From: a virus | Virus record (IMG/VR): IMGVR_UViG_3300022921_001019 | Location: 1-44,452 of that record | Length of the DNA stretch: 44,452 nucleotides | Reading direction: 5' to 3' (one strand) | Part shown: positions 22,568 to 44,446 of the stretch, piece after piece | Numbering within the stretch: position 1 is the first letter of the stretch | Layout: the number at the start of each line of letters is the position of its first letter | Translations under genes and position numbers: made by a program | The notes under the pieces: generated by a model | The model's database searches: none | Seen by the model: only the letters and a program-made list of their open reading frames with translations | Told to the model about the DNA's origin: nothing

Positions 22568-23236
22568 ATGCTTACTCTATTCACATCAGGTAGTACAGAT
22601 GAACCAAAACGTGTAACACACTCTTGGGAATATATTAACCAATCTGCAAAACTTTCAGCAAAAGAAATTGGACTAACTAAAGACGATATTGTATTGGATG
22701 TCTTTCCAGCAAACACTATAGCACACTATACTATAACAGCTCTTCCTGCTTATATAAGCGGCGCACAGCTAGTTAGTGCTAACTTTAATGCACTTACCTA
22801 CCCTACGTTGTTTAGTAGCGTTAAACCGACGTATATAGCGTTAATTCCACGCCATTTAGAGTTGTTACAAAAGACAAAAGGCTTTAAAGACTTAGACATG
22901 AGTTGTGTACGTTATATGGTTACTGGTAGTAGTAAAATTGAGCAATCATTTATTGATGCATTCAAAGAGCGTGGAGTACAGACTGTTGCTAATTGGTACG
23001 GCATGACAGAGTATGCTCCGCCGGTAATGATTGGATACGATTCACCTAGTTTTGATTTTAACACTATAGATGAAAAAAGAACACATGTGATGTTTAATCC
23101 AATTACTGCTACATCTAAGTTAGCCCATTGTATTATTAATGGTAAAAGTACAGGCGATATATTTGACATGAATACTAAAACATTTTCACACAGGATGAAT
23201 ATAGCTAATGGTAAAACTTGGAAAAATGAATTTTAG
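22568..23236 (+). CDS. Minimal AMP-forming adenylation (ANL) domain
   Basis: This is a 222-residue protein made only of the core of an acyl-CoA synthetase/NRPS adenylation domain. It starts at the P-loop 'FTSGSTDEPK' (5-14; TSGSTGxPK with Gly to Asp), then 'YMVTGSSKI' (117-125), 'NWYGMTEYAPP' (142-152, the YGxTE motif) and 'GKSTGDIF' (D197, the ribose-binding Asp). The usual 150-residue N-terminal part and the C-terminal lid with the catalytic Lys are missing. The motifs for ATP binding are kept, so acyl-AMP formation is possible in principle. No carrier protein or CoA partner is visible. It overlaps the next gene by 11 bases. Confidence 0.75.
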   Translation: MLTLFTSGSTDEPKRVTHSWEYINQSAKLSAKEIGLTKDDIVLDVFPANTIAHYTITALPAYISGAQLVSANFNALTYPTLFSSVKPTYIALIPRHLELLQKTKGFKDLDMSCVRYMVTGSSKIEQSFIDAFKERGVQTVANWYGMTEYAPPVMIGYDSPSFDFNTIDEKRTHVMFNPITATSKLAHCIINGKSTGDIFDMNTKTFSHRMNIANGKTWKNEF

Positions 23237-23786
23237 GTTTGCTACTAAAGACGATGAATCGTTAGTAGAGAAATTTTGCAAATCACAAAACTTCAGCAAT
23301 AACACATCTCTTAAAAAAATGAAATGGGAATGGGTACTAGAAGAAGGTGCTTGGACTGTTGCTACACACAAAGATAAAATTGTTAGTATTGCTGGCATAC
23401 ATAAACTACCCGAAGTTAGTCCAGATGCATATAGATGTTTATTCCGTGGTGCCCAATTACCTGGTTATACATTAGGCACTGGTAGAGATATTTTTAAGAC
23501 TGGAATACAACTAAGTCAGTTATTAAATTTGCAAATCAATTGGGCATTAGAACAAAGTCTCAATGCAGAACTTTATATTAGTACAAACATAAATGATGAT
23601 GGTGGTAAAAGTAAACGTATGAATGATACTATGATGCCATTATTAGCAAGACGTGGTATATGGAAGTTAGAACAAAGTATGATGTTGTTTAATGTTCCAC
23701 AGCGTCTGTGGCGTATTAATGTTCTAAAGTATATGGAAGAGCGTAACCTTTCGCTAGGCAACGATAACTGTACTCATCAAAAATAG
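23226..23786 (+). CDS. GNAT-like acetyltransferase
   Basis: This 186-residue protein starts at ATG 23226 (an alternative at 23208 adds six residues). 'NFRFATKDDESLVEKF' at the start and 'WTVATHKDKIVSIAGIHKLP' are typical of the first strands of GNAT acyltransferases. The later 'INWALEQSLNAELYISTNIN' resembles the region after the acyl-CoA loop. The pyrophosphate loop (QxxGxG/A) is weak. It overlaps the adenylation gene by 11 bases, so the two are probably co-expressed and might act in sequence on one substrate. Its last 71 bases are also coding on the other strand. Confidence 0.55.
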   Translation: MNFRFATKDDESLVEKFCKSQNFSNNTSLKKMKWEWVLEEGAWTVATHKDKIVSIAGIHKLPEVSPDAYRCLFRGAQLPGYTLGTGRDIFKTGIQLSQLLNLQINWALEQSLNAELYISTNINDDGGKSKRMNDTMMPLLARRGIWKLEQSMMLFNVPQRLWRINVLKYMEERNLSLGNDNCTHQK

Positions 23787-24831
23787 CAAACGGTGTCTTT
23801 TTAATCTTAATTTCTTTAACTTCGTTTTTCCAATATGGAGTATTTTTACTAGTTGCAGTATAGTGAAGTTCTAAAAACTTTTCAATATGCGTTACAACCT
23901 TTCTCCATTGTGCGTTATAGATTTTTTGCTTGTTATAAAGTCTTACTAGCATTTCTACTTGGTATTGTATTAACCATATTGCTTGTGCTTCTAATGGTTC
24001 TAAAAATCCTGCACTTAAACCTACATTTAGAATATTACCTTGATAAGGAGTATCACTATATTGTCCTGTCCACTCAATTACTCTTAACTTATCTAATTCT
24101 AGTTTATACGGACAAGTATCTATGAACTCTTGTTTTGCATCTTCTATTGTTTGGTAGTCTTTATTAAATACATATCCATTACCTATTCTATTTTGTAAAT
24201 AGATATTCCACATCCATCCTGCACTCATAGCAGTAGTTTCTGTATAATACTTTAGTTCAGTATCATAACTAGGTGCTACTACTGCACAGTTATTTTTAAG
24301 ACTAGATTTAATCATATTAGTTTCAGGAAATAGTTTATTAAATCCTGCACAATTAATAATTAAATCTGCGTCAATATCATCTATAGTGTCTAATGTTTTG
24401 TTTATTAGTTTAACGCCATTAGGTAATGCTACTTTATCTCTAAGCATTATTCCAAACTTGTTAGCATCAATATGATATGCGTGGCGCCATTTTTTATCTG
24501 GCATTTCATAATTTATCATCCAACGCATTTGTTCGTCATGTTCTGATTCATTAAAACAAAAATGATGATACCAACTATCACCGTGCCAATTTTTGTGTTT
24601 AATTGTATACTTGCGTACAGCATCACAATCATCAAACAGATCTTGTTCAGTTAATCCACACTCTTGAATAAAATCGTATATACTTGGAAGTGTGCTTTCG
24701 CCTACTCCAATGATAGGGATATCTTGACTTTGAATAAGTGTAATGTCCCAATCGGTTTTTTTAGAAAGATAAGCGGCAGTCATCCATCCAGATGTACCAC
24801 CGCCTACTATAACAATTTTTTGTTTAGACAT
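23716..24831 (-). CDS. Flavin-dependent halogenase (tryptophan-halogenase family)
   Basis: The start is placed at the ATG at 24831 (371 residues), which overlaps the thioredoxin-like stop by 8 bases. Features are the FAD motif 'VGGGTSGWMTAAYL' (9-22), 'GVGESTLPSIYDF' (42-54) and 'VRKYTIKHKNW', whose K74 aligns with the halogenation Lys (K79 of PrnA). A WxWxI block 'AGWMWNIYLQNRIGNGYVF' (WxWxIP with Pro replaced by Tyr) and 'GLSAGFLEPLEAQAIWL' follow. Such enzymes chlorinate, brominate or iodinate aromatic substrates; marine phages are known to carry members. It needs reduced FAD from the host. The substrate is unknown, as no Trp-pathway gene is near. Confidence 0.88.
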   Translation of the reverse strand: MSKQKIVIVGGGTSGWMTAAYLSKKTDWDITLIQSQDIPIIGVGESTLPSIYDFIQECGLTEQDLFDDCDAVRKYTIKHKNWHGDSWYHHFCFNESEHDEQMRWMINYEMPDKKWRHAYHIDANKFGIMLRDKVALPNGVKLINKTLDTIDDIDADLIINCAGFNKLFPETNMIKSSLKNNCAVVAPSYDTELKYYTETTAMSAGWMWNIYLQNRIGNGYVFNKDYQTIEDAKQEFIDTCPYKLELDKLRVIEWTGQYSDTPYQGNILNVGLSAGFLEPLEAQAIWLIQYQVEMLVRLYNKQKIYNAQWRKVVTHIEKFLELHYTATSKNTPYWKNEVKEIKIKKTPFAIFDEYSYRCLAKGYALPYTLEH

Positions 24832-25147
24832 GTTTATCAATAAATTGTTTGATTTGTTCTTTTGAACTGTCACCATATAATGTTCCTAATACAGTTGTAC
24901 TTGAATCAGTGTGTTCAAATACTTTAACGCAGGGAACCCCGTGTACTGTGAATCTGTTGTATGTAGAGGGATTAGGATCTACTTCTGATTGTGCAAAGTT
25001 AACTTCACTATAGCTAGATTCTAGTTGTGCAAAGTTAGTTTGAAACTGACTGCTAGGGCCGTTCCAGTTAGCATAGAACAACATCACACACCGACCACGT
25101 GTAGTATCTAAGTACTCGTTAAAGTTTGTATCTGTAACTTCTTTCAT
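24824..25147 (-). CDS. Thioredoxin-fold protein lacking the CxxC site
   Basis: This 107-residue protein has a thioredoxin layout: 'CVMLFYANWNGPSSQFQTNF' (residues 20-39), where WCGPC is replaced by W28-N-G-P-S32, and 'TVHGVPCVKVF', the cis-Pro segment (P72). Without either active-site Cys it cannot act as a normal oxidoreductase. A structural, binding or chaperone role is more likely. Translation is coupled to the halogenase through an 8-base overlap, so it may be a partner or processivity-type subunit of that enzyme. Confidence 0.75.
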   Translation of the reverse strand: MKEVTDTNFNEYLDTTRGRCVMLFYANWNGPSSQFQTNFAQLESSYSEVNFAQSEVDPNPSTYNRFTVHGVPCVKVFEHTDSSTTVLGTLYGDSSKEQIKQFIDKHV

Positions 25148-25155
25148 ACTAGTGT

Positions 25156-25872
25156 CTAACTTCCTTTTATATTTGGCTTTTCCCAGACTTTTTCAACCTG
25201 TGAAGTTTTTATACTGAAATAGATATGTATTCTATCTGTGTCGCCATAATTTACAACATCATGAGGTTGTGTACTATTAATAATATAACACCCGTCAGTT
25301 GGCATTAAGAACGGAGTTCCGCCTATTGTCCAATTGGTTTTATCATTAGTGTATAAAGGTAAATGTACTGTAAGCCATTGTGGCTCATCTTGATGCATAC
25401 CTAAGCGTGTTCCTGGTGTATGTTTTACTACTACCCATTCAAATGCATCTTTATCTAATCCCATATCAATTAGTGCATTGTGTATATCTAACAAATAACC
25501 AAATAACTGTTCTTCTTTAATACTATATAACCCACACCCTTGTCCATATACACAACCCCAACTGTTAGGTTCTGTAGTTTCTCCTTGGTAGAGAAATTCA
25601 GTATCTGAATATTTTTCTAAAAATTGTTTATACCAATCACGGGCTTTCTCTAGATCAAACTCAAACCATTTATGCATTTGAAATCCTAGATCATGGTATG
25701 GATATATTTCACTTACACGATTAAAACTAGGAGCAAAGGTTTCTCTGCCTTGAGCGTTTTTAAAATGGCATCTATCTGGATTATTCTTTTTATCGTAGTC
25801 TACATATTCGTGATAGTCAGCGAACATTTTTCCTGTGGCGTCTTGGCAGGGCGTATCGTTAAAACGCTCCAT
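25156..25872 (-). CDS. 2OG oxygenase, Asp/Asn beta-hydroxylase-like
   Basis: This 238-residue protein's C-terminal half has the triad: H160 and D162 in 'LGMHQDEPQWLTVHLPLY', H204 in 'NSTQPHDVVNYG' and R214 in 'TDRIHIYF'. The pattern (HPPGxxLxxHxD...GxxxIxNxxxPHxxxNxGxxxRxHL) is the same as in the paralogues at 27144, 27869 and 28819, and resembles the aspartyl/asparaginyl beta-hydroxylase family. The N-terminal 130 residues differ among the paralogues and may select the substrate. The AspH family hydroxylates Asp/Asn in folded protein domains; the phage target is unknown. Confidence 0.82.
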   Translation of the reverse strand: MERFNDTPCQDATGKMFADYHEYVDYDKKNNPDRCHFKNAQGRETFAPSFNRVSEIYPYHDLGFQMHKWFEFDLEKARDWYKQFLEKYSDTEFLYQGETTEPNSWGCVYGQGCGLYSIKEEQLFGYLLDIHNALIDMGLDKDAFEWVVVKHTPGTRLGMHQDEPQWLTVHLPLYTNDKTNWTIGGTPFLMPTDGCYIINSTQPHDVVNYGDTDRIHIYFSIKTSQVEKVWEKPNIKGS

Positions 25873-25877: not shown

Positions 25878-27125
25878 TTAACTAGAATAAGTTTCTAGGC
25901 TTAAATTAACTGGAATAAGTTTTGATGTTTTAGAATTAAGATCTACAATAGCCATATCACTACCTAACCCTGCATCACTAAAATCAAACTTGTAAGGTGC
26001 CAACATTGTAACACTATCAGTATCATTAATTGATCCTGAAGTAATATTTGCAGTACCTAAGTCCATAACTTCGTTAATTGCAGTTCCTTCAACTTTAAAA
26101 ACTTTAGTTGTTGGATTTACCATGCTTGGATTTTGTATTGATGGAAACAAGTAAACGTCTCCAGCATTAATAACTGGTTTACTACCTAGTGACTCATTAG
26201 TTGCAAAGCTATCAATAGCAAGTGTATCTAAGTTTAATGATACAAACTCTTTACAGCCTTCCCAACAAGTATGTGTTAATAATGTGTTACCGTTCATAGT
26301 TCCGTATTTGAAACCCATTTGTCCACCCATGTCATCTGTGCTAGATGAATCATAAGCAACTGATTGAACTGTATCACCGTCATATACCCAGAAGTTAAAT
26401 TCTGTAGTACCGTCCATAATTAATGGAGCACCAACTGCTTTAGTTCCGTTTGTATTAACATGATAAAATGCACCGTTAGTTGGAGCTTCATGTGCAGTAA
26501 TTGTATTTGTTTCCATGTCTAATGTTAACAACTTGTTAGTTGTTTTACCATATGGAAAAAATACAACTTCATTTAAATCTTCTACGTACACACTATGAAT
26601 AGAAGCAAACTTTTCTTCTGTTTCGTGTACAGTAAATGTATTAGCAACAGTATCAAACACAATAATCATTCCACTCATAATTGGTGGATAAACAATTTTA
26701 GTACCAACTGTAATTGGGCGACCAAAGTTAAAGTGTCCACAGAATGTTTTAGGAGTTTCTGAGCCGTGTACTGTAACACCTTTTTCTTCAATCATTGTAA
26801 CTTCATTAGTATCTAAGTTTACAGCCGCTACTCTAATAATGCTGTCTACTTTGTCTTTTTGTGTACGCATTACATATGCTGTATTACCTACAACTGCAAT
26901 ACCTCGGTATCTGTCACCGTTATCACTTTTATCAAAAAAGTCTACAAATGTAGTACTATCTGCATTTACTCTAAGCAATCCTGCTCTTGCACCTGCATCT
27001 TTGTTAAAATCTCTTGTTTCTTCGCCTTCGTGACGTGCTTTTCCGTTAGTGATTACTGACAAAAATTCACCATTTCCTAAGTGGTATGGTTCGTCTAATA
27101 CCTGTGTAAAATATGTGTTGCTCAT
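25878..27125 (-). CDS. Beta-propeller protein, probable late/virion protein
   Basis: This 415-residue protein has about seven imperfect repeats of 45-55 residues. Each has a strand such as 'NEVVFFPYGKTTNKLLTLDM' followed by 'ETNTITAHE' or the like (VxV.DT.TN.IT). Blades recur at roughly 70, 130, 185, 235, 290, 330 and 370. It has a T4-type late promoter and a strong AGGAG ribosome binding site. Expression as a structural or adhesive protein therefore seems likely. It resembles the two propeller proteins at 34138 and 35357. No enzyme site is visible. Confidence 0.7.
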   Translation of the reverse strand: MSNTYFTQVLDEPYHLGNGEFLSVITNGKARHEGEETRDFNKDAGARAGLLRVNADSTTFVDFFDKSDNGDRYRGIAVVGNTAYVMRTQKDKVDSIIRVAAVNLDTNEVTMIEEKGVTVHGSETPKTFCGHFNFGRPITVGTKIVYPPIMSGMIIVFDTVANTFTVHETEEKFASIHSVYVEDLNEVVFFPYGKTTNKLLTLDMETNTITAHEAPTNGAFYHVNTNGTKAVGAPLIMDGTTEFNFWVYDGDTVQSVAYDSSSTDDMGGQMGFKYGTMNGNTLLTHTCWEGCKEFVSLNLDTLAIDSFATNESLGSKPVINAGDVYLFPSIQNPSMVNPTTKVFKVEGTAINEVMDLGTANITSGSINDTDSVTMLAPYKFDFSDAGLGSDMAIVDLNSKTSKLIPVNLSLETYSS

Positions 27126-27143: not shown

Positions 27144-27872
27144 TTATTTATCTGCTATATTGCAGTTTATTAATAAAAGCGATTGCATAAAATCGTCATC
27201 AACTCTGGACAATAAGTGTACTCGCTCTGTACTTCCGTTATTTTCTGTACCATGTGGAACTAGGGTATTAATTATATATCCTTTGCCCAATTCCATGTGA
27301 TATGTTCGTTCTCTGTTTTCGCCAAAAGTAAAAACAGCATCTTTATTTGTATAAAATGGAACATGTAGTTTTCTAGTTTTTCCGTCAGTATGTGTATTAA
27401 CTTTAAGTCCACTAGGGTGTAATGCTATTAACATCTGTCTTAATGATTGCAAAGATAGTGTTTCTAACATTTTGTTTAAGATACCAAATTTATAAACTTG
27501 CATTGGTACACAATCATAATAGAATTTTTCTTCATCTAAATTTTGTAATTCAGGATACATATCAATGTTAGCTTGTGATTTACTTGGACATGGAATATCT
27601 CGCTCTATTGGCCAACTAACACTCCAACCTTGTACGTTTCCTTGATAATTTCCAACTGCATTTTCTTTTTGAAATCTATCATATATTTCAGGACGTAGAT
27701 ATTCTTTAGAATTAAAACTAAAGCATAAATTTTGTAATCGTGTTTTTAATTGTGTATAATAGAATTCTAAATCATCTTTATTAATGCTAAAGTCTAATTC
27801 AATTATATCCCATTCGAGACTATTAAATAATGCATCAACATCTGTTATATCTTTAGCAGTTAATAATCTCAT
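27144..27872 (-). CDS. 2OG oxygenase, Asp/Asn beta-hydroxylase-like
   Basis: This 242-residue protein has the same C-terminal domain as its neighbours: 'HPSGLKVNTHTDGKTRKLHV' with H161/D163, 'TLVPHGTENNG' with H207, and R217 in 'TERVHLLSRV'. The N-terminal 140 residues are specific to this copy, though 'GWSVSWPIERDIPCPS' echoes 'YGWGIQSNLDDLTIPCPPW' of the next gene, so the two are closely related. It shares ATGA with 27869-28420. The substrate is unknown; two adjacent related copies suggest different residues of one target or two targets. Confidence 0.82.
   Translation of the reverse strand: MRLLTAKDITDVDALFNSLEWDIIELDFSINKDDLEFYYTQLKTRLQNLCFSFNSKEYLRPEIYDRFQKENAVGNYQGNVQGWSVSWPIERDIPCPSKSQANIDMYPELQNLDEEKFYYDCVPMQVYKFGILNKMLETLSLQSLRQMLIALHPSGLKVNTHTDGKTRKLHVPFYTNKDAVFTFGENRERTYHMELGKGYIINTLVPHGTENNGSTERVHLLSRVDDDFMQSLLLINCNIADK
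27145..27152 (-). promoter_or_regulatory. T4-type late promoter element (minus strand)
   Basis: On the minus strand this reads GATAAATA, 19 bases before the propeller ATG at 27125, overlapping the end of the upstream gene. An AGGAG ribosome binding site follows (27132-27136). It makes the propeller independently transcribed late, within an otherwise continuous operon. Confidence 0.65.
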
Positions 27873-28420
27873 ATGTAATGTTCAGCAGGTACTTTAAAAA
27901 ATAAATGTACTCTATCTGTTTCTCCGTTATTAATAGTACCGTGTGGGCGTCTAGTATTTATTAGATATGCTTTTCCAATAACTAACGAATATTTTTTATC
28001 ACCAAATACAAAACATGCATCAGGGTTACTTAGTATAGGAATATGTATTTTAAGATATCTATCAGTGTCGGTGTGCTGTGCTATTTCAGTTCCGGGTGGA
28101 TGGCCGCTAATACTAAACTGTCTTGCTTGAGGAAATTTTACTTTAAGTCTATTAATTACACCGTATACTAATTCAGTATCTCTATAATCATCGCTACCTT
28201 CCTTGTGTACATTCCAAGGTGGACAAGGTATTGTTAAGTCGTCTAAATTACTTTGTATACCCCAACCGTATACACCATCAGTTTTATGTTTTTCACTATT
28301 AACAGTATCAGCTACATTAGTAAATTTTAAATGTTCAAAGTTTGTTTGTAATCCTATGTAGTAACTTCTAAAGTCACTATATTCGATCCCTATAGGTAAT
28401 TCTTTTACATCAAAGCTCAT
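27869..28420 (-). CDS. 2OG oxygenase, Asp/Asn beta-hydroxylase-like (short)
   Basis: This is a 183-residue protein and the shortest of the cluster. H116 and D118 are in 'GTEIAQHTDTDRYLKIHIP', H160 in 'NTRRPHGTINNG' and R170 in 'TDRVHLFF'. Its order 'FSISGHPPGTEIAQH' matches the neighbours closely. The N-terminal domain is reduced to about 95 residues. It overlaps the phosphatase-like gene by 11 bases and is translated as part of one minus-strand message. Confidence 0.82.
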   Translation of the reverse strand: MSFDVKELPIGIEYSDFRSYYIGLQTNFEHLKFTNVADTVNSEKHKTDGVYGWGIQSNLDDLTIPCPPWNVHKEGSDDYRDTELVYGVINRLKVKFPQARQFSISGHPPGTEIAQHTDTDRYLKIHIPILSNPDACFVFGDKKYSLVIGKAYLINTRRPHGTINNGETDRVHLFFKVPAEHYI

Positions 28421-28838
28421 CTAGTGTATTCCTTATAATTGTATATGCATACTTTCCATTATGTTTAATTCTAGTATTATTTACATAATCTGCAACTGCT
28501 TTGCTACGTGATTCGCCTTTCATACAATGAACATGAATTGTTCCACAAGCATCTTTAAGGAAATTTGAAATGTGTTGAATTTGTGTTAGGGTTGGTGCAA
28601 CTGCTTTGTAATATGATTGTATATCTTCTCCCCAATTTGTTTGATCTTCAGCAACATCATCAAAACATAAATTTAATACATTGGGATGAAATTGTTTAAA
28701 ATAAGGCTCACTGTTTGGACCACCTGTTGAATCAATGCAAATATAATAATCATTAGTATCTTCAACTGTTACATCTGTGATATTTTCACTTTGCATTTTA
28801 GATACAAAGTCTTTCTTACTATAACTTACGGCAATCAT
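28410..28838 (-). CDS. CX5R protein/dual-specificity phosphatase-like
   Basis: This 142-residue protein has the tyrosine/dual-specificity phosphatase P-loop 'VHCMKGESRSKAVADYV' (C105, R111; HCX5RS). An upstream 'LNLCFDDVAED' (D60/D61) may provide the general acid. It is one of the smallest forms of that family. It would dephosphorylate a phosphoprotein or a phosphorylated RNA or sugar. It lies between two beta-hydroxylase-like genes with overlaps of 11 and 20 bases. Its phosphorylated substrate is unknown; the kinase fragment at 33702 is in the same island. Confidence 0.75.
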   Translation of the reverse strand: MIAVSYSKKDFVSKMQSENITDVTVEDTNDYYICIDSTGGPNSEPYFKQFHPNVLNLCFDDVAEDQTNWGEDIQSYYKAVAPTLTQIQHISNFLKDACGTIHVHCMKGESRSKAVADYVNNTRIKHNGKYAYTIIRNTLDEL

Positions 28839-29466
28839 CTGTCCAAACCTTTCCGTATAAATGTATCCTATCCGTTGTACCTTTGTTTTCTACACTATGC
28901 GGAATAGTTGTGTTAACAAGATAAGCCCAGCCTACTTCCATATGGTATTCTTTTCCGCCTATTATCCAATTACTGTCTGCATTGGTATGTATAGGTATGT
29001 GTACACGTATTTTATCTGGAGCGTCTTGGTGTGTAATTAATTTAGTACCTGGTGTATGAATAGTTACTAACCATTTCTTACTACGCATAGGCAAATTGTT
29101 TACTAAATCTAATCCATATCCTTTAAAACATTCCCTTGGATTAAGCTCGTCATTATCATTATCTCTATACTCTGGCTTTGCACACCCTTGTTCAAATGGT
29201 TTAGGTCCCGGTTCATCACTATTCCAACAAAGAGTATAGTATGCTGTATCGTCCATTAGACGATGCCCTGTCTTTGCTTCAGGATCACTAATAGGAAACT
29301 GCCATACATGTTGTTGTTCACCTATAACAAATTTCCAATCGCTGTAATCTTTTTCTAAGTCAGCGTACCAACTTTGTATTTCATCCGGATTAACTCTGCA
29401 TAACTTTTTAACTGCCCAGCCTAAGTCTGCTTGGTCATGTTCCTCTATGTAACGCTTCATCTCCAT
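28819..29466 (-). CDS. 2OG oxygenase, Asp/Asn beta-hydroxylase-like
   Basis: This is a 215-residue protein. The triad is H146/D148 in 'GTKLITHQDAPDKIRVHIPI', H190 in 'NTTIPHSVENKG' and R200 in 'TDRIHLYGKV'. Its tripartite opening 'WQFPISDPEAKTGHRLMDDT' and 'FKGYGLDLVNNLP' is unlike the other copies and closest to the 25156 protein ('GQGCGLYSIKE'). It shares TAATG with the 489-residue gene. The substrate is unknown. Confidence 0.82.
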   Translation of the reverse strand: MEMKRYIEEHDQADLGWAVKKLCRVNPDEIQSWYADLEKDYSDWKFVIGEQQHVWQFPISDPEAKTGHRLMDDTAYYTLCWNSDEPGPKPFEQGCAKPEYRDNDNDELNPRECFKGYGLDLVNNLPMRSKKWLVTIHTPGTKLITHQDAPDKIRVHIPIHTNADSNWIIGGKEYHMEVGWAYLVNTTIPHSVENKGTTDRIHLYGKVWTDDCRKL

Positions 29467-30935: not shown

Positions 30936-30936
30936 G

Positions 30937-31635
30937 TTACCCTTGATTAGTATAATAGCTTTGTCTTAGCACGTAAAAGAAATCTCTAATACGTCTACCT
31001 AATTCATAATGTATAATCATATGTATACGAGGTTTATCACTATCGTTATATACTGCATGTACATTTGATATGTCCATTAAGAATGCACTACCGCTATCTT
31101 CAAACGGCACTATGCCGTGATCTTTAAAAATAAATTTGCAATTTTCTGGATTATTTAAACTAATATTGCAAACACTTAAACGTTTTTCTTCATCTGACCT
31201 ATCTTGATGTGGAAGTATGTAACCGCCTGGTTCAAGCAACATAAATCTTACTCGATTTAAAAACTCTGCAGGCCACACATCTGTTAAAAACTTTTTAGTA
31301 ATAGGACATTCGTCTGCTACCCAAGTCCAATCTAATTGTTTGATAGTTTCATCTCTATCACCATACCCACCTAAACTTTGTGTGTCATCATTTAATCCGT
31401 GTAGTGTTAAACTTTTCCAACCTTTGCCATATGTAGTTTCTCTATGTGGATAAAACTTGTCTGCAAGTGCTTCTGCTTCTGCATACATTTCTTTCCAAGG
31501 TTGATTATCCAAAGCACTTAGCCTAAAACAAGGCCAGCCGCTTTCCATTACAATCCATTTAGGGTCAAATTGCTCTGGGTACTTTACAGTAACAATGTCT
31601 TTCCTACGCTTTATATGTTCTATATCTGCTGTCAT
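30937..31635 (-). CDS. 2OG oxygenase of a second beta-hydroxylase-like type
   Basis: This is a 232-residue protein. H143/D145 are in 'GGYILPHQDRSDEEKRLSVC', H193 in 'DISNVHAVYNDSD' and R203 in 'KPRIHMIIHYE'. 'YGKGWKSLTLHGL' and the following region match the protein at 39684 ('DGKGWRSLTLHGH'), so these two are paralogues of a different subfamily from the 25-29 kb copies. It is the first gene of the minus-strand operon and faces the radical SAM gene across 39 bases. Confidence 0.82.
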   Translation of the reverse strand: MTADIEHIKRRKDIVTVKYPEQFDPKWIVMESGWPCFRLSALDNQPWKEMYAEAEALADKFYPHRETTYGKGWKSLTLHGLNDDTQSLGGYGDRDETIKQLDWTWVADECPITKKFLTDVWPAEFLNRVRFMLLEPGGYILPHQDRSDEEKRLSVCNISLNNPENCKFIFKDHGIVPFEDSGSAFLMDISNVHAVYNDSDKPRIHMIIHYELGRRIRDFFYVLRQSYYTNQG

Positions 31636-37583: not shown

Positions 37584-38112
37584 GATCAACTGCAAGGTAA
37601 TGAATATTTGTATTACGTGGGCTATCAATTAACCACTTAATAAGTTTACCTGCATCAAGCAAACTAATCTTCTTACGATCACTGTTGTCATTTACTTTTT
37701 TAGAATCAAGTTGTCCAAACGCAATATTGCTTACACGAATTTTGCTATCACCAAACGCACAATATTGTGAATATGTTTTACTTGCTTCATCTAGTGCAGT
37801 TTTACTTTCAAGATATCCTTTTGGACTATAACCGTCACCCCAATAACTTGTTGTACTAGAAATGTTAATTATATGTGACCCTTTGAAAGTTTTGTAAACT
37901 TTATGCAACAATTTTTCTTGACCGTTATCTGGTATTAACAAACTGTTTACAAATACGTCATAGTCTTTTATATAATCTGCAACAGCATCTAAGTCTTGCA
38001 TATCCCAACCATTGTGTCTACCAATAAATTCTAATTGGTTACCATTGTACGCTTCATATAGGCCTTTGCAAAGACCTTCATAATTAGGATTGCCTGTTAT
38101 AATTATTTTCAT
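37564..38112 (-). CDS. Short-chain dehydrogenase/reductase
   Basis: This is a 182-residue protein. 'KIIITGNPNYEGLCKGLYEA' is an SDR-type dinucleotide-binding start (TGxxxxxG), with 'DVFVNSLL' and 'HIINISSTTSYWG' (Ser) next. 'YLESKTALDEAS' lacks the strict YxxxK at the expected spacing, but 'GYLESKTAL' (Y-L-E-S-K) supplies it. It is shorter than typical 250-residue SDRs. It probably oxidises or reduces the product of the adjacent enzymes using NAD(P). It is the last gene of its operon, sharing ATGA with the radical SAM gene. Confidence 0.68.
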   Translation of the reverse strand: MKIIITGNPNYEGLCKGLYEAYNGNQLEFIGRHNGWDMQDLDAVADYIKDYDVFVNSLLIPDNGQEKLLHKVYKTFKGSHIINISSTTSYWGDGYSPKGYLESKTALDEASKTYSQYCAFGDSKIRVSNIAFGQLDSKKVNDNSDRKKISLLDAGKLIKWLIDSPRNTNIHYLAVDPIQTTL

Positions 38113-39044
38113 GCTTCAATTCTGCTTTGTCTATCTCCGCGGTCCTTACGTATGTATATATCACTCAAACATCCGCACACAGTTTTTCCGCATGTAATAG
38201 GCTCAGTTGGTAGTTTATATCTTTCCATATTTCCTATTGGTCCACCAAACTGACAATCTGCTCTATACATGTTGCCCCACATGTCAATGTTTATTCCGTC
38301 AACGCCTGCCCAACATTTCCAACCAGCAAAATTATTCATACCAGACATGATTAAATCATTTGCTGTAATAAGATTGTTATCAAGTTTAAGATCTCCACGG
38401 TGTAACTTCTCATCATTAACTTCTCTTGCAAACGGCCAAGCACCAATAATTTCTTTTTGTTCACTACTATAAGGTGCTACTGCATTAGTAATATGTTCAC
38501 CGTCTGTTTTATCTAAAATAACTTTAGGATATATTGACATCCTATCTGTTCTATCAAACAAGTATTGTGCTATTTTATACTGTTCTTCAAATGATTCTTT
38601 TCCAGGAGGTAACATTAAATTAACAATAATTTCACACGATGTTGCGTTTGCAATATCTACAAAATGTTGTGAAGAAGAATACTCTGGATGATAACTCATA
38701 AGCATACCATCAGTATATGGATCTATCTTTTGAAAATATTCAACTGATTGGCTACCGTTTGTAACAAAACTAAATGTGTGTCCTTGTTCCTTAACAAGTT
38801 TTGCAAGATCAATAAAGTGTTTCCAATAAGTAGGTTCTCCGCCACTAAGTCTGTAACAAATTTCTTTAGAAGGTACTTTAAAATTTTCGACAAAGTTTTT
38901 AACAGTTTCCCATTTGGGCTGTCCTGTAGTTCCGTTGTGTAATATATCCGGGCAGTAAGAACATTTGTAATTACATTTATTACTTAATGTCCAACTAACT
39001 AAGAACCAATCTTCTTTTGTTTTATCTTGATAATCTAGCTTCAT
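38109..39044 (-). CDS. Radical SAM/SPASM-like enzyme
   Basis: This is a 311-residue protein. 'SNKCNYKCSYCPDILHN' (C24, C28, C31) is the cluster site and 'CYRLSGGEPTYW' the GGEP motif. The C-terminal third is Cys-rich, 'FAGWKCWAGVDGINIDMWGN' / 'MYRADCQFGG' / 'CGKTVCGC', as in SPASM domains with auxiliary iron-sulfur clusters. SPASM proteins modify peptides in RiPP pathways and also amino-sugars. It does not look like the twitch group. It is coupled with the SDR downstream and a 2OG-like protein upstream (overlaps of 4 bases). Confidence 0.86.
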   Translation of the reverse strand: MKLDYQDKTKEDWFLVSWTLSNKCNYKCSYCPDILHNGTTGQPKWETVKNFVENFKVPSKEICYRLSGGEPTYWKHFIDLAKLVKEQGHTFSFVTNGSQSVEYFQKIDPYTDGMLMSYHPEYSSSQHFVDIANATSCEIIVNLMLPPGKESFEEQYKIAQYLFDRTDRMSIYPKVILDKTDGEHITNAVAPYSSEQKEIIGAWPFAREVNDEKLHRGDLKLDNNLITANDLIMSGMNNFAGWKCWAGVDGINIDMWGNMYRADCQFGGPIGNMERYKLPTEPITCGKTVCGCLSDIYIRKDRGDRQSRIEA

Positions 39045-39697
39045 TCGCTCATGCTATTCTTAATAATTAAATCGTGTGTGCGTTGATTTAGTTTAACTGT
39101 AAGTATTAAAGAATATAATCCGTTAGTGTAACTAAACACACTATGTTCTTTTTGAAAGTTAATAAAATGTACATACTCTGGATCAGGATAAATTAATTGC
39201 TTGTCAAGTATATGTGCATAGTTTTCTGGTTGTGCTTTGCCAAATGTACATAACAATCTAAAGTACTCTGGTCCTACTCCTGGAAAGTCTCTGTGCGGCG
39301 GAAAGAACCCACCTTCATCTACTCTAAGTAAATGCACTCGGCCAATGTCAGGTGCAAACGCATCTACAAGACTAGCAAGTTGTGGAATTTTGTTATACAC
39401 TTCTGTTGGTGTTGTAAAGTTTTCTTCTTTCATCTCAACATCGTGATATCGTTGCATATGGCCAAAGCTATTCAAATGATAGTTGTCCATTACATCACCT
39501 GTATGACTTGTTACAGGTAATCCCCATCGATTGTTGTGAGCATCTTTTTTTTGGTTGTAAGGACACCAGTTATCTTCAAACTGCTCTAATTGCTGTACAA
39601 GCTCATGCCCGTTAACTTTTAGCTTTAATTTTACCATGTCGCCTAAATTACATAGACTATTCCATAGCAATGCTCTTTCAATATTATTTTGTTCCAT
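39041..39697 (-). CDS. Divergent 2OG-oxygenase-like protein lacking the usual Arg
   Basis: This 218-residue protein keeps the HxD...H pattern: H135/D137 in 'GGFFPPHRDFPGVG' and H185 in 'FQKEHSVFSYTNGLYSLILT'. The Arg that binds the 2-oxoglutarate C5 carboxylate, about 10 residues after the second His in the paralogues, is missing (L/Y there). It may use a different cosubstrate anchor or have lost activity. 'VHFINFQKEHSVF' is the local equivalent of 'NTxxPHxxxN'. It shares overlaps of 4 and 14 bases with its neighbours. Confidence 0.65.
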   Translation of the reverse strand: MEQNNIERALLWNSLCNLGDMVKLKLKVNGHELVQQLEQFEDNWCPYNQKKDAHNNRWGLPVTSHTGDVMDNYHLNSFGHMQRYHDVEMKEENFTTPTEVYNKIPQLASLVDAFAPDIGRVHLLRVDEGGFFPPHRDFPGVGPEYFRLLCTFGKAQPENYAHILDKQLIYPDPEYVHFINFQKEHSVFSYTNGLYSLILTVKLNQRTHDLIIKNSMSE

Positions 39698-40328
39698 TAT
39701 ATACCTTGTCGTAACTGTTGCAGACTAGTTGCATAATTTTTTTATTCCACTTATCAATTGGTTCACTATGTACAATAATATGTATCCTAGATTCACTACT
39801 GTTGTTTGTAATTTGGTGCACACTTCCTAAATCAATCAGTCTTGATTCACCTTCTTGCCATTCTACATTGCCATAATTCTCAATATCAAACACTACTTCT
39901 TTGGGGTGTGTAATAGCAATATTAATTCCGCCTAGTAATTGTCCATGTAAAAAGTCTTTGTGTGGACTAACATACCCGCCTGGGTCAACTATCATTATTC
40001 TAATTCTTCCGTACTTTTCAAAAGGTATATTTTTAGTAATCCATTGTTTGGTTAACGGAAAGTGCTTTGCTACATCAGTCCATTCTTTGGTACCTAATGT
40101 AAATCCTTTTTCTTTGTAAGCATCATCACTATCAGTCATTACAGAACTATGTCCATGAAGTGTTAAACTGCGCCAACCTTTGCCGTCAGTATCCCTGTGA
40201 GGAACAGCAATATCAACACTTTTTAATATTTCATCTCTAATATCATTTGTAGGCTTTGGAATATCTAACAGAAGTGTAGCAAGGCCACTGTTGTGTCTAA
40301 TCCAATTAAATTTTTCTACTAGATCCAT
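39684..40328 (-). CDS. 2OG oxygenase of the second beta-hydroxylase-like type
   Basis: This is a 214-residue protein. H123/D125 are in 'GGYVSPHKDFLHGQLLGG', H171 in 'DLGSVHQITNNSS' and R181 in 'ESRIHIIVHSE'. It is a paralogue of the 30937 protein, as both contain 'GKGW(R/K)SLTLHG' and 'VDPGGY(V/I)xPH'. It overlaps the methyltransferase-like gene upstream by 10 bases. The substrate is unknown. Confidence 0.82.
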   Translation of the reverse strand: MDLVEKFNWIRHNSGLATLLLDIPKPTNDIRDEILKSVDIAVPHRDTDGKGWRSLTLHGHSSVMTDSDDAYKEKGFTLGTKEWTDVAKHFPLTKQWITKNIPFEKYGRIRIMIVDPGGYVSPHKDFLHGQLLGGINIAITHPKEVVFDIENYGNVEWQEGESRLIDLGSVHQITNNSSESRIHIIVHSEPIDKWNKKIMQLVCNSYDKVYNGTK

Positions 40329-41008
40329 GGCAATACCTTAAATTTATCGTCTAACGGCATGTCTACTAATTCACTTGCTAGTGTTTGAATATGTGTTCCG
40401 TTGACTGTTACCATATCAACATACCATTTGATTTTATCTTGTGCTAATAAACTAATTAATTCATTTTGTTTTTTAAGTCTTGCCTTTGCATCAAACATTA
40501 CGCAATTAGGAAAGTATAAAAACACATTACTTAAACAAAATAATCCTACGTTACCTTGGCATTTTGTTAAAAACTTTTTTACAGCTGGTATATCAAATAA
40601 ATCAACTTGGTCGTATTTGTAACTCTTATCTACATCTATATTATATTTTTCTTTTGTTTTTTCTAGTGCCATTGGACTAATGTCAATAACATATGTATGT
40701 TTGGCTGGTAACTGACTTGGAGTGTCTCCACTTGCTAACGCAACAACACAATCAAGATCAATTATTGTTTTTAACGGTACTTCGGTATTCTTTTTAAAAT
40801 ATACATTATAATTTAAAATACTATTTAACACACTGATATTTTCAACTGTATGTGTGTCATCTAAGAAAATAGTTCCTAGCGGTACTCCTTTAATTGTAGA
40901 GTACTTAACTTTTAGTGCATGAGCAGTATGATACTCTGCAATATTTCTTGCTATACTATTAAGACTGTCGTTATTATAGTCAATATGTTTCCAAATTAGT
41001 TTGTTCAT
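40319..41008 (-). CDS. SAM-dependent methyltransferase-like protein
   Basis: This 229-residue protein has a Rossmann-like core: 'IIDLDCVVALASGDTPSQLP' at the motif I region, then 'YVIDISPMALEKTKEKY' (acidic residue ending beta 2). 'GNVGLFCLSNVFLYFPN' is the motif IV-like segment. The Gly-rich loop is weaker than in standard methyltransferases. It may methylate a small molecule or peptide made by the neighbouring radical enzymes. It shares ATGA with the tail-fibre-like gene. Confidence 0.62.
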   Translation of the reverse strand: MNKLIWKHIDYNNDSLNSIARNIAEYHTAHALKVKYSTIKGVPLGTIFLDDTHTVENISVLNSILNYNVYFKKNTEVPLKTIIDLDCVVALASGDTPSQLPAKHTYVIDISPMALEKTKEKYNIDVDKSYKYDQVDLFDIPAVKKFLTKCQGNVGLFCLSNVFLYFPNCVMFDAKARLKKQNELISLLAQDKIKWYVDMVTVNGTHIQTLASELVDMPLDDKFKVLPWI

Positions 41009-41583
41009 GTTGATATCCTGTACAATGGCATAGCATATTTGTTGCCGTCTAATTCAATTTGAACATATTTCTCTATTGGTCCTACTTCGTTAACTACTGT
41101 GTCTGTTATTTTTAAATTGCCACTAGTTATATTACCTTGTGTAATTAAGTTACCATCACTATCAAGTTTTAATTTAATAGACGTGTCTGTATTATTAGAC
41201 AATGCTATAACCATTTCATTAGCAACCGGACCTTGTTTATTATAATCTTTAGATACAAAAAATTGTATAGCACCATTCAACGGTGTTTCATCATGACAAT
41301 ATCCTAAACTACTGCCTGGCTTAGTTCTTCCATAAATTTGAACGCCACCTAAGTTATCTCCAGGTTCAACTGGTAACTTATTCTGCTGTGTTCCTCTTGA
41401 TTTAGTTATTCCAAGAAAAATAGGTTCATTGCCGCCTGTGGCTCCGTCAATATATAACAACTGTTCGTTAGCAGTAGAACGCACAATAAGATTTGCATTT
41501 GTTTCTTCTGTACCAATAACAGTTTGTTCGTGTAGTTCTATAGGATCTACATCATGACAAACAATTTTATATCCTACGTCCAT
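41005..41583 (-). CDS. Tail-fibre-like protein on the minus strand
   Basis: This is a 192-residue protein. It has beta-strand-rich repeats ('LKLDSDGNLITQGNITSGNL', 'KITDTVVNEVGPIEKYVQIE') like the shaft region of the 21150 tail fibre ('GNLTLGGNLQIGD') and a C-terminal 'LDGNKYAMPLYRIST'. The N-terminal part ('ELHEQTVIGTEETNANLIVR', 'QLLYIDGATGGNEPIFLGIT') resembles fibre collar or head segments. It may be a fibre module, cap or recombination donor for host-range change. It sits inside the enzyme operon with overlaps of 4 and 1 bases. Confidence 0.65.
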   Translation of the reverse strand: MDVGYKIVCHDVDPIELHEQTVIGTEETNANLIVRSTANEQLLYIDGATGGNEPIFLGITKSRGTQQNKLPVEPGDNLGGVQIYGRTKPGSSLGYCHDETPLNGAIQFFVSKDYNKQGPVANEMVIALSNNTDTSIKLKLDSDGNLITQGNITSGNLKITDTVVNEVGPIEKYVQIELDGNKYAMPLYRIST

Positions 41584-42884
41584 TATATATGTTTTCCTAA
41601 TTCTATAAATGTTGTTCTAAAGTCTGTTCCACGACGTTGGTCTAATACTTTTAAATAATCTTGTAACTGGGGCAATTTGTTAGACCAGTCTTCACTCATC
41701 ATATAGTCTACTATACCTTTGAATCTCTGTTTACCCATTGCGTGTTGATTCCACTCAGTATTAAATTTTTGACTGTCAATAAATTTTTCAATATTGTTTT
41801 TAGCAAATTCTTTATACTCTTGTGGTAACACTCGTACATTCAAATAACTTGGAAAATATACAAGGTGTGTTCCAATAAGGCCGCCGCCGAACGGTAATAC
41901 ATTAATGTTATTAAACTTTTGCTCTATTTTCCATTCAGCAAGTTCATGTATGTATGCTACATTTAATAACTGTACTGCACAAGCCATATTAACTCTAATA
42001 TTAGGTCCTGCGTTATCTAATTTATGTAGGTTTGCACTTACGTCTTGCCATTTACTAGGATAGCGTATATAATCATTCTTATCTCCGTATGCATCAACAC
42101 TAAAGTTAAATGTTACTTCTTGAAAGTGTTTCCACAATGCAAATAGTTTATCAGGTAGTTCTAATCCATTACTGTTATAACGTATACAAATATTTTTACT
42201 AAAGCCGTTGTCAACCATAAACTCTAGTATAGCATAATGCTCTGGTATTAGTAAAGGTTCTCCACCAGCAAAATACAATTCTTTAATATGCTGTGATTGA
42301 TCTTTCATTGAATCTAAGAAACTTCCTTTTTTATACCAAGTATAATCAAAGTCTTCATCCCAACTTTGTTCTGCAATTAAATCTTTGTTTGTATATTTAG
42401 GTTTTTGTAGTTTCCATTCTTTAATCCAACTGCTTGAATCATGTGGACTACACATTACACACTTTAATTGACACAAGTTGCCAAGTCGTAAGTCAAAGTA
42501 AGGAATATTAACAGGCAAATTACCTTCTGCATCTGTTTTATCTACAATACTATCAAGGTCTAAACGCTTTTCCCACACTTTAGTTTCCCATTGACGCTTA
42601 CTTACGATGCCTTTTTCTTCTTCTGCAAAACATTTACGACAACTTGCAGGTATTTGGTCATTTAGCATTTGCAATCTTGTGTTACGCATATGCTCACTAT
42701 TCCACACTTCTTCAATAGTATGGTCACGCATGTTCATAGCAATGCCGTCCTTTTTAACAAGGCCTGCTGTTTTGTCATCTTCAAGTCCAGCACCTGATGC
42801 ATTAGCAGTACAGCAAACTCTAACATCACCATTAGGTCGTGTTGCTAAGTGTATCCATGGTAACGGACAAAATGTCTTACGCAT
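41583..42884 (-). CDS. Twitch-type radical SAM protein
   Basis: The start is placed at ATG 42884 (433 residues), overlapping the upstream stop by 8; ATGs 42890 and 42908 are alternatives. 'TFCPLPWIHLATRPNGDVRV' / 'CC' and 'ASCRKCF' form the N-terminal auxiliary region. The core is 'LGNLCQLKCVMCSPHDSSS' (C138, C142, C145), followed by 'LYFAGGEPLLI'. It is the largest member of the twitch group in this window, a paralogue of those at 32642 and 36462, and on the other strand. It probably acts before or after the methyltransferase-like protein in the same operon. Confidence 0.87.
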   Translation of the reverse strand: MRKTFCPLPWIHLATRPNGDVRVCCTANASGAGLEDDKTAGLVKKDGIAMNMRDHTIEEVWNSEHMRNTRLQMLNDQIPASCRKCFAEEEKGIVSKRQWETKVWEKRLDLDSIVDKTDAEGNLPVNIPYFDLRLGNLCQLKCVMCSPHDSSSWIKEWKLQKPKYTNKDLIAEQSWDEDFDYTWYKKGSFLDSMKDQSQHIKELYFAGGEPLLIPEHYAILEFMVDNGFSKNICIRYNSNGLELPDKLFALWKHFQEVTFNFSVDAYGDKNDYIRYPSKWQDVSANLHKLDNAGPNIRVNMACAVQLLNVAYIHELAEWKIEQKFNNINVLPFGGGLIGTHLVYFPSYLNVRVLPQEYKEFAKNNIEKFIDSQKFNTEWNQHAMGKQRFKGIVDYMMSEDWSNKLPQLQDYLKVLDQRRGTDFRTTFIELGKHI

Positions 42885-43875
42885 GTTCATGCCTTTCAAA
42901 TTGTGCATTCATTTTGTCAAAACTTCCACATTGTTTTGAACATTCTTTTAGTCCGCAAGTGCTCCATGTCTTTTCTATCTTGTTAAAGAAGTTTGAAGAA
43001 AACACTTCTTGCATAGTATTCCTATGCAAATTAGGGAATTCTTTAATTTTTATCATATAATCTATTTTTGAATGGGCGTGTTGTGGTAACCATTCTAAAT
43101 CTAACCAACAGCACGGACTAACGTTTCCATTAGCACTAATATACAGTTGCTTGTCTTGAACTGCTTTACAATTAATAGTTGGTAATGTTTCGTTCCTAGC
43201 TTTTTCTGCTGGTGCAATCATTTCTAAACTTTTTTGCGACGGTAATAGTGTATGTGTAACATTGTAGTTGTCATCTATTACATCAAACTTACCATCTTTA
43301 AATCTTGTTGTATGCTTAATACTAAAGCCTTTAAATCCCATGTCTTTACTTAATTGTTCACAAGTATCTACTTGATGTTCATTGTGTTTGAATACTAACA
43401 TATCCCAACGTGCATCGCCGCCTTCGTCAATAAAATGTGATGCATTTTGCATAATCTTATTAAAGTCTGTATTGATCCTGTATAACTTATGAGTGTCTTC
43501 TAAACCGTCAATTCCAAAAACAACTTTAACTTTTAGTTGTGCAAGTTGTTTCCACCATGTAATATTTCTTCCACTTCCGTTAGTGTGCATCTGTAGTGTC
43601 ATTTCAGAGTTTGTATCACGCAGGTATTGAAAAATTTCTAATGTATCTTTAGCGACAATAGGATCACCCAAATTACCACACATACTAAGAAACTTTAATT
43701 GACGCACAAAGTCTCTTGGAAACCAATTAACAAATGTTCCTAGATCTATTTCATCTAAATCTAATCCTTCAAGTAATGGTCCGCCATGTAAACGTCTTGG
43801 ACACATAGGGCATCTTGCTTGACATTTGGAAGTTACTTCTAAATGTATTGCTGTTATGTCTGTGTAATTATACAT
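42877..43875 (-). CDS. Radical SAM/SPASM-like enzyme
   Basis: This 332-residue protein is a paralogue of the 31675 protein. 'LEVTSKCQARCPMCPRR' holds C18, C22, C25. 'MCGNLGDPIVAKDT' replaces GGEP, and 'FGIDGLEDTHKLYRIN' and 'ARWDMLVFKHNEHQ' match the paralogue almost residue for residue. The C-terminal 'YISANGNVSPCCWLDLEW' and 'CGLKECSKQCG' resemble an auxiliary-cluster domain. It follows the methyltransferase by an 8-base overlap. Confidence 0.88.
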   Translation of the reverse strand: MYNYTDITAIHLEVTSKCQARCPMCPRRLHGGPLLEGLDLDEIDLGTFVNWFPRDFVRQLKFLSMCGNLGDPIVAKDTLEIFQYLRDTNSEMTLQMHTNGSGRNITWWKQLAQLKVKVVFGIDGLEDTHKLYRINTDFNKIMQNASHFIDEGGDARWDMLVFKHNEHQVDTCEQLSKDMGFKGFSIKHTTRFKDGKFDVIDDNYNVTHTLLPSQKSLEMIAPAEKARNETLPTINCKAVQDKQLYISANGNVSPCCWLDLEWLPQHAHSKIDYMIKIKEFPNLHRNTMQEVFSSNFFNKIEKTWSTCGLKECSKQCGSFDKMNAQFERHEHA

Positions 43876-44446
43876 GCTGTGTTCCTATAATCATAAATCT
43901 TTTATATTTTGCTAATTGTAATTCGTTTGCTGTTTCAACATTTAACTTTGATTTCTTTACAAATTCATCTAATGTTTCACTACAATTAATATGTTCATCT
44001 AATTCAAAGTAATTGTTAGATTGTAAAATTATTTTTGCCGATGATGGAACATTATCTAACCATTGCATATACTGCTCTTGTGTAATATGTTCACAACTGG
44101 TATTGATAACAAAATAAGGATTAGTTGTATATTCATAACTACACATGTCTCCTGTAACTGCTTCAAACATACCTTCCATCTCTTGACGTTTGTTTATTGT
44201 ACTTGCAATTTGTTTACAAGCTGGATCAATATCAATACTTATAATATGTTTAATACCAATGTCACTATTAAACAACATATTTGCTAGTACACCGTTCCAG
44301 CCGCCATGTATTACAGCATTAGCATTACTAATTGCTTTAGATTTTTTACTTAAACATTCTATTAACCAAGTTTTAGATTCTAACTGTCCTCCCCAGAAAC
44401 TTTCAAGCGTACGGTCACGGTCATCGCTGTTGCGAATTGCATCCAT
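43868..44446 (-). CDS. SAM-dependent methyltransferase-like protein, possibly truncated at window edge
   Basis: This is a 192-residue reading from ATG 44446. The open frame continues to the window edge without a stop, so the true start could lie outside. 'NANAVIHGGWNGVLANML' is a Gly-rich motif I, 'IISIDIDPACKQIASTIN' gives the acidic residue of beta 2, and 'YFVINTSCEHI' is the motif IV-like segment. The fold matches class I methyltransferases. As the first visible gene of the operon its promoter is not in view. The substrate is unknown. Confidence 0.72.
   Translation of the reverse strand: MDAIRNSDDRDRTLESFWGGQLESKTWLIECLSKKSKAISNANAVIHGGWNGVLANMLFNSDIGIKHIISIDIDPACKQIASTINKRQEMEGMFEAVTGDMCSYEYTTNPYFVINTSCEHITQEQYMQWLDNVPSSAKIILQSNNYFELDEHINCSETLDEFVKKSKLNVETANELQLAKYKRFMIIGTQHV

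Follow-up and report, generated by a model that had tools for sequence, protein, structure and literature searches.

A conserved, enzyme-rich gene block beside the tail fibre of a T4-like phage: a possible late-expressed system for tailoring adhesins

The right half of virus record IMGVR_UViG_3300022921_001019 (44,452 bases, analysed in full and called the window below) carries, at positions 22568-44446, a dense block of genes for radical S-adenosylmethionine (SAM) proteins, 2-oxoglutarate (2OG) oxygenases, a halogenase and beta-propeller proteins. The phage is T4-like and belongs to an uncultivated family that has this block between its tail-fibre genes; the record covers part of its genome, and in it the block begins 44 nucleotides past a tail-fibre gene. 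The core gene order recurs in divergent viral contigs. A late-promoter motif occurs in the block, and a pair of propeller genes co-varies with oxygenase genes and a mini-adenylation gene located elsewhere in it; these last two observations are new. Our preferred reading, held tentatively and somewhat short of even confidence, is that the block, placed in the host-recognition region, is a modular system expressed late to tailor the phage's own adhesins, with the propellers as likely clients. We prefer it because it best explains the position, timing and co-variation of these genes.

Twenty-seven genes are packed into the block, and 99.66% of it is coding. Counting from the fibre gene through position 44446, neighbouring genes overlap at 21 of 27 junctions and the largest gap is 44 nucleotides. 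The initial annotation, made from the sequence alone, had described overlap-coupled genes in three operons; the coupling holds, but the genes fall into four strand blocks. It had also placed the cluster next to a tail fibre, and the gene at 21150-22523 (plus strand) indeed carries an Mtd_N domain (PF18454, 44.3 bits against a cut-off of 26.3). The ratio of nonsynonymous to synonymous substitution (dN/dS) was below 1 in all 78 gene comparisons with three related contigs (range 0.02-0.60), a set in which some synonymous distances are near saturation.

Searches with 31 window genes (tblastn) gave a recurring core order, U489 OGe / RSa RSb KIN (PROPb PROPc) RSc / SDR RSd ... RSe RSf MTb, in which OG genes encode 2OG oxygenases, RS genes radical SAM proteins and PROP genes propeller or propeller-like proteins. 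With RSc as query, 71 loci were found in viral contigs at 52-100% identity. A profile of U489 served as an independent query; it matched 96 stretches, from which 80 loci were kept, 52 of them fully flanked and representing 36 distinct U489 proteins. Scattering of these genes in homologous phages, which the initial annotation had set against its own proposal, was not seen: among distinct proteins with full flanks, OGe, RSb and KIN were linked to U489 in 36 of 36 cases and RSd in 33 of 36. Counts for RSa, SDR and RSc in the U489 set were not interpreted, as divergent copies may be missed through flank limits and tblastn cut-offs. Because the order recurs in divergent contigs, which rules out chance or scattered clustering, and because dN/dS was below 1 in 78 of 78 comparisons, the gene cluster is confirmed as real. 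Eight proteins were also searched against 50,697 phage records (E limits of 1e-5 or 1e-3, with records very near the window possibly excluded). Nothing there matched RSc, PROPa, U489, PROPb or OGe, while RSe matched 21 records and RSf four. A scan of genome contigs with RSf for a bacterial origin gave one locus with 22 matched residues, taken as chance.

Presence of PROPb and PROPc was identical in all 36 distinct U489 loci. OGd, OGc and AMPb (the mini-adenylation gene) were found in 28 of the 28 loci with PROPb and in none of the eight without it; HAL (the halogenase gene) was found in 22 of 28 and the phosphatase-like gene DSP in 19 of 28, again with 0 of 8 among the remainder. The GNAT-like gene was present in 28 of 28 and in two of eight, those two being weak matches of about 23%. 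In the RSc-centred set, which was not dereplicated, KIN, RSc, RSd and RSe were found in 58 of 71 loci, and with OGf counted above 45% identity, PROPb and OGf were concordant in all 58 (both in 36, neither in 22, mixed in 0). The co-varying genes sit at three places, with retained core genes between them. KIN abuts RSc in 17 of the 20 listed loci lacking the propellers, and 2.3-2.4 kb separate the two in the 20 listed loci that have them. On the U489 tree two propeller changes are needed, both forced by well-supported branches because the propeller-plus locus L151 is nested in the propeller-minus clade. The RSb of L151 is nevertheless of the propeller-plus kind (64% versus 46-47% in its neighbours).

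Evidence on timing came from the window and from two longer relatives, G001 (186,342 bases; window position = G001 + 8522) and G010 (156,563 bases). Unsupervised 8-mer enrichment recovered ATAAATAC upstream of 12 of 63 operon starts in G001 (0.31 expected), and the same count gave 11 of 57 in G010 (0.24 expected). Cyanophage S-PM2 has NATAAATA as its reported late promoter (PMC2984593), and the motif recovered de novo is the T4-type late promoter. NATAAATA is scarcer than expected in both genomes (37 copies versus 82-96 in G001; 25 versus 64-75 in G010), but 25 of the 37 and 23 of the 25 copies, respectively, lie 10-70 nucleotides ahead of a called gene, where 1.1 and 0.86 were expected by area. 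Genes with a well-placed copy include sheath and baseplate-type genes. Outside promoter positions, across the whole of G001 and G010, NATAAATA occurs at about 40% or less of the Markov expectation, as if counter-selected.

The window itself holds five copies of the late-motif core (ATAAATA) versus 27.7 expected. One stands before 16208, one before the fibre gene (21115-21121, plus strand), and one before PROPa (27145-27151, minus strand), where it leads PROPa-OGa-TRX-HAL. A fourth lies inside OGc, about 90 nucleotides before OGb (27955-27961, minus strand), and the fifth is antisense within PROPb. PROPa of G001 has the motif 27 nucleotides upstream. In the same genome a divergent motif pair occurs at 39990 (plus) and 40011 (minus), the minus side heading a 14-gene run that ends with SDR and includes RSg, RSf, RSe and RSd. 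Among distinct upstream regions of other loci, in a search that took in the first 150 nucleotides of the frame, the motif was found before the fibre gene in 4 of 4, before PROPa in 3 of 3 and before OGb in 9 of 14, and almost no internal block genes were preceded by it. The motif evidence is thus strong for the fibre gene and propeller A and partial for the core blocks. As the motif stands before the fibre gene and PROPa and, in relatives, before some though not all of the other block leaders, expression of the block is probably late. A role in early host take-over was set aside, since late motifs speak against it.

The enzyme families in the block are recognizable to different degrees. Seven 2OG oxygenases had been counted initially, and all seven were recovered, six by exceeding the curated cut-off (22.6 bits) of the AspH-type family PF05118 and one by family profile. 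The six, all on the minus strand, are OGa (25156-25872, 35.6 bits), OGb (27144-27872, 29.1 bits), OGc (27869-28420, 43.6 bits), OGd (28819-29466, 47.5 bits), the core gene OGe (30937-31635, 47.7 bits) and OGg (39684-40328, 46 bits). The seventh, OGf (39041-39697, minus strand), has no Pfam match; its family profile matches L-proline cis-4-hydroxylase in the PDB profile search (E 1.5e-4) and aligns with the OGd family (hhalign E 1.9e-5, probability 78%).

Six radical SAM genes were counted, one more than the five first reported; the additional one is RSf (42877-43875, minus strand), which falls slightly under the PF04055 cut-off (28.6 versus 29.5 bits) and exceeds the SPASM cut-off with its C-terminal domain (PF13186, 28.4 bits). 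The other five exceed the PF04055 cut-off. RSa (plus strand) scores 36.2 bits for PF04055 and 26.9 bits for a C-terminal SPASM domain (PF13186); it runs from 31675, its likely ATG, to 32652, and several computations (NF033640, dN/dS, junctions) took 31678 as its start. RSd (38109-39044, minus strand) scores 40.1 bits for PF04055. The cut-off (170 bits) of NF033640, 'twitch domain-containing radical SAM', is passed by RSb (32642-33715, plus strand, 227.8 bits), RSc (36462-37583, plus strand, 223.5 bits) and RSe (41583-42908, minus strand, 418.5 bits), with RSa, RSd and RSf below it. In these three proteins the SPASM/twitch part stands in front, and we refer to them as N-twitch radical SAM proteins.

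The initial calls of a halogenase and an adenylation core were both borne out. HAL (23716-24831, minus strand; likely start 24831, with a longer frame to 24876) matches PF04820 at E 2.6e-72 and, in PDB profile searches, tryptophan 5-halogenase (E 5e-44) and VirX1 (E 1.6e-39). Of the hallmarks of such enzymes (a flavin motif, a catalytic Lys and Glu, and WxWxIP), HAL has GGGTSG as well as a Lys and a Glu in line with those of tryptophan 5-halogenase, and its WxWxIP reads WMWNIY (Pro to Tyr). On these features HAL is probably a flavin-dependent halogenase. It matched 81 of the 50,697 phage records, at no more than 31% identity. AMPb (22568-23236, plus strand) is a mini adenylate-forming enzyme of 222 amino acids that matches the AMP-binding family PF00501 at E 2.9e-21 over profile positions 168-331 of 384. 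It is without the usual N-terminal and C-terminal parts, and its size of about 220 amino acids is kept among the relatives listed (215-223 amino acids in the 12 listed out of 37 distinct relatives). TSGST..PK, WYG.TE and TGD, functional motifs of such enzymes, are kept in an alignment of ten AMPb relatives.

Next to HAL lies TRX (24824-25147, minus strand), a thioredoxin fold (PF00085, E 9.9e-14) whose active site reads WNGPS, a sequence that fits the 'redox-dead' label first given to it. HAL, TRX and OGa occupy a swap spot (23716-25872): in three close relatives HAL (37-50% identical) as well as TRX and OGa (37-70%) either have diverged versions in their place or were not found. PROPa, which adjoins this spot, is 92-95% identical in the same three relatives.

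Several other first labels stood less firmly. Phosphatase, kinase, SDR and GNAT assignments rest on marginal or below-cut-off matches. DSP (28410-28838, minus strand) matches DSPc at E 0.0032, below cut-off, and does contain the HCX5R motif; KIN (33690-34157, plus strand) is a kinase-lobe-like core protein with invariant HxD and DWDN and a PDB kinase-domain profile match of E 0.007. The SDR-like protein (37564-38112, minus strand) matches PF13561 at E 0.036, below cut-off. For the GNAT-like protein (23208-23786, plus strand), the family profile aligned with a GNAT acetyltransferase over the first half only (E 0.0092), and no Pfam or PHROG match was found. Of the methyltransferase-like labels, MTb (43868-44446, minus strand, truncated at the record end) has a below-cut-off match to PF13649 (E 0.036) and no PDB match for its family profile, and MTa (40319-41008, minus strand) has no methyltransferase match in Pfam or PHROG. 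The label of FIB2 (41005-41583, minus strand) as fibre-like found no Pfam or PHROG match. The G001 copy of MTb is 203 amino acids long, and the block continues past it.

Of the three propellers first proposed, PROPb (34120-35364, plus strand) is well supported by its model (pLDDT 81.7, pTM 0.86) and by Foldseek matches at E about 1e-10. Its viral matches include a cyanophage S-TIM5 'virion structural protein' (E 9.5e-9, rank 13), along with many propellers of other roles; PROPb had no match in the PDB profile search. PROPc (35357-36487, plus strand) is propeller-like by a Kelch match of E 0.0045, below cut-off. PROPa (25878-27125, minus strand) keeps its first label with no Pfam, PHROG or phage match.

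The core gene U489 (29466-30935, minus strand) was overlooked at first and looks like a GT-A fold in its predicted structure (pLDDT 66.6). Residues 14-269 appear to form the GT-A-like fold, with a VIA Z of 9.9 across residues 18-231, and residues 270-489 fall outside it. The best Foldseek E was 2.2e-3, with none at 0.001 or better. Human COLGALT1 (collagen galactosyltransferase) and LH3 (lysyl hydroxylase) are among the listed matches at Z 9.2 each, scores tied with many other GT-A and nucleotidyltransferase chains. A PDB profile search gave lysozyme matches only (E 0.24 or worse), taken as chance.

If the block tailors adhesins, late sigma-factor-dependent transcription would make the enzymes along with the fibres and propellers. 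The radical SAM core, U489 and OGe would install a first set of changes. The mini-adenylation enzyme with its GNAT partner, the halogenase and the AspH-type oxygenases would decorate propellers, fibres or both with hydroxyl, acyl and halogen groups ahead of virion assembly. Adhesins modified in this way might change binding or resistance to escape. The least certain step is that the propellers are substrates of the enzymes; alternatively, they could be their binding partners. The initial annotation had proposed modification either of the phage's own adhesins or of a host peptide or surface component, and this is partly supported: the late motifs and the propeller-oxygenase co-variation fit virion adhesins better than an early take-over, and sugar-related genes in G001, described below, fit glycan work too.

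Several observations weigh against the tailoring of adhesins. The propeller-minus clade retains the radical SAM core, so the propellers are not the sole clients of the core. Since the RSb of L151 is of the propeller-plus kind, one large recombination could have brought all the co-varying genes to that locus, and the co-variation might reflect few such events. The propeller genes do not have raised dN/dS (0.08-0.16), which gives no sign of an adhesin arms race, and we dropped such a race as support. Among the AspH-type and proline-hydroxylase relatives are enzymes that act on free amino acids. The motif preceded just 9 of 32 distinct upstreams of OGe and 3 of 29 of RSa in other loci, and no exact copy was found in the OGe/RSa intergene of the window. 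In pelagiphage HTVC008M the halogenase gene and most 2OG genes are without a well-placed late motif. Finally, late motifs are compatible with a host target as well.

Next in rank after the tailoring of adhesins, and a serious rival to it although on balance unlikely, is a change of the host envelope. The block would then alter a surface protein or an O-chain-like glycan, for instance so as to keep other phages out. The glycosyltransferase-rich islands of pelagimyophages have been read in this way, PMC7029224 arguing for surface change and superinfection avoidance. The block in G001 extends about 12 kb further than the window, and this extension holds one more radical SAM gene, a 224-amino-acid gene without class, a 305-amino-acid gene, a UDP-glucose/GDP-mannose dehydrogenase-type gene and two more radical SAM-type genes (one passing SPASM only). 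It also holds genes judged by eye to be glycosyltransferase-like, with no Pfam match. The dehydrogenase-type and glycosyltransferase-like genes, the predicted GT-A fold of U489, and the DegT and class-III aminotransferases encoded by G010 would all suit envelope work. The late-promoter motifs, however, count against it, and the tie between the propeller pair and the oxygenases has no obvious place in it. Beyond the extension, G001 has fibre-type genes, including one whose product bears a phage Tail Collar domain, and a 4,937-amino-acid protein encoded beside them in a single open frame (G001 55113-69926).

Natural-product synthesis, too, usually employs the kinds of enzyme found here (radical SAM/SPASM proteins, 2OG oxygenases, flavin halogenases and adenylation enzymes), and the closest PDB profile matches of both OGd and OGf are L-proline cis-4-hydroxylases. 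We consider it rather unlikely, however, that the block makes a small molecule or peptide, either amino-acid derived or like a ribosomally synthesized and post-translationally modified peptide, that acts on the host or competitors. No gap exceeds the 44 nucleotides noted above, which leaves no room for a free-standing precursor gene in 22568-44446, though an embedded or unlinked precursor may exist; no carrier-protein or condensation match was found among the block proteins scanned with Pfam. The same scans, which can miss divergent examples, listed no PqqD-like precursor-recognition domain.

Less probable still, the propellers could be effectors or serve the enzymes as partners or scaffolds, the enzymes themselves acting on another protein. 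Partners would be expected to co-vary in the same way, and the persistence of the core without propellers is consistent with it. Yet PROPb and PROPc form a clean insertion between KIN and RSc, and PROPa, with a late motif of its own, comes first in its part of the block, which is what would be expected of a structural protein that is delivered. Auxiliary metabolism, with the radical SAM proteins serving general host Fe-S metabolism, is very improbable as the main role: PMC5332604 reads a 183-kb T4-like ocean genome in this way and A-type Fe-S carriers occur in 9 of 28 related records, but such a role leaves unexplained why, in every locus examined, radical SAM and oxygenase genes lie linked next to fibre genes, and the carriers may simply feed the radical SAM enzymes. 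One such carrier gene, at G010 140104-140430, has its own late motif 24 nucleotides upstream.

Membership of the T4-like group was examined in relatives of the window, where 7 of 18 records, mostly fragments, scored above the Portal_T4 cut-off. The major capsid protein and terminase of G001 are 37% and 33% identical to those of HTVC008M. In a radical SAM search G001 had 9 matches, and each of 28 records had 6-10. Host-recognition islands with many enzymes have been described before in pelagiphages and Campylobacter phages. The combination of genes, which the initial annotation could not name in a phage, is indeed unusual, but radical SAM genes within such islands have been published for T4-like phages.

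The pelagimyophage cluster (PMC7029224) resembles the present block as a T4-like, tail-fibre region with many non-structural enzymes, including glycosyltransferases and radical SAM cassettes; in pelagimyophages it is flanked by VrlC and gp14. Here too, tail fibres and many accessory enzymes lie in one region. That cluster is described there as hypervariable and glycosyltransferase-dominated, whereas the window block has a conserved radical SAM/AspH-type oxygenase/propeller order; the core order is kept in divergent contigs and only parts such as HAL-TRX-OGa are swapped. Pelagibacter phage Mosig (MT647606), which grows on HTCC1062, has two AspH-domain genes, a GNAT-type gene, methyltransferases and MoaA-type genes between its tail-fibre genes and VrlC, and its island shares the late motif (13 sites, 9 at -10 to -70, 0.57 expected). 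It differs in having no annotated halogenase or propeller, with nitroreductases, a carbamoyltransferase and a desaturase in their place, and RSf was the sole protein with a match there among the eight from the window that were searched (23% across half of RSf).

Campylobacter phage CP220 has 11 radical SAM genes, and the module of CP220/CPt10 is called interchangeable and probably non-essential (PMC2853527). The stretch of CP220/CPt10 examined has six radical SAM-labelled genes and nucleotide-sugar-transferase-type genes upstream of a tail-fibre gene; unlike the window block it has no annotated 2OG oxygenases, and its RSf match is 22%. By analogy, the Mosig and CP220 islands suggest a wider theme. 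The 183-kb genome mentioned above, TARA_ERS488813_N000010, carries 12 radical SAM genes and an A-type Fe-S carrier and is possibly of the same lineage as the window phage, but the section that describes it (PMC5332604) does not connect these genes with oxygenases, propellers or fibres. Vibrio jumbo phage K566 possibly has another such module, with four radical SAM-labelled genes within 25 kb.

HAL shares the flavin halogenase family with VirX1 of a cyanophage, and both HTVC008M and Sf-CH11 have a halogenase beside 2OG oxygenases and structural genes. However, HAL has about 371 amino acids versus about 500 in phage halogenases, to which it is at most 31% identical, and no radical SAM genes are annotated in those two neighbourhoods. 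Oxygenases of the 2OG type and halogenases are well known in marine T4-like phages (PMC3037559), and a study of marine-phage islands (PMC3909814) lists oxygenases that depend on Fe(II) with the host-recognition genes. The literature covered, which lacked most subscription journals and bioRxiv, yielded neither an account of a conserved block of radical SAM, 2OG and propeller genes nor one of late promoters in such a block.

Other genes of the window lie apart from the block. An ATPase gene (phrog_1297) is found at 16950-19473, a few genes before the fibre gene, together with the gene of a phrog_1314 protein, which is labelled HNH endonuclease but resembles a metallopeptidase/VWA protein in sequence. 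A QueE-like radical SAM gene at 12145-13044 (phrog_2076, E 2.6e-50) stands away from the island.

In its widest form the proposal, which we regard as possible but doubtful, is a virus-encoded chemical diversification of the phage's own receptor-binding proteins, in which radical SAM, hydroxylase, halogenase, acyl and glycosyl chemistry would act late on propeller and fibre adhesins, with cassettes and enzymes exchanged as modules. If true, adhesins would have binding surfaces beyond what the genetic code alone encodes, and phage host range would be set by post-translational chemistry and not by fibre sequence only. The block would also be a conserved source of new enzymes (N-twitch radical SAM proteins, 220-amino-acid adenylation enzymes and paired oxygenases) for which candidate protein clients are at hand. 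The proposal also gives the radical SAM-rich modules of T4-like phages, so far unexplained, a reason that can be tested, and the cultured phage Mosig is suited to such a test.

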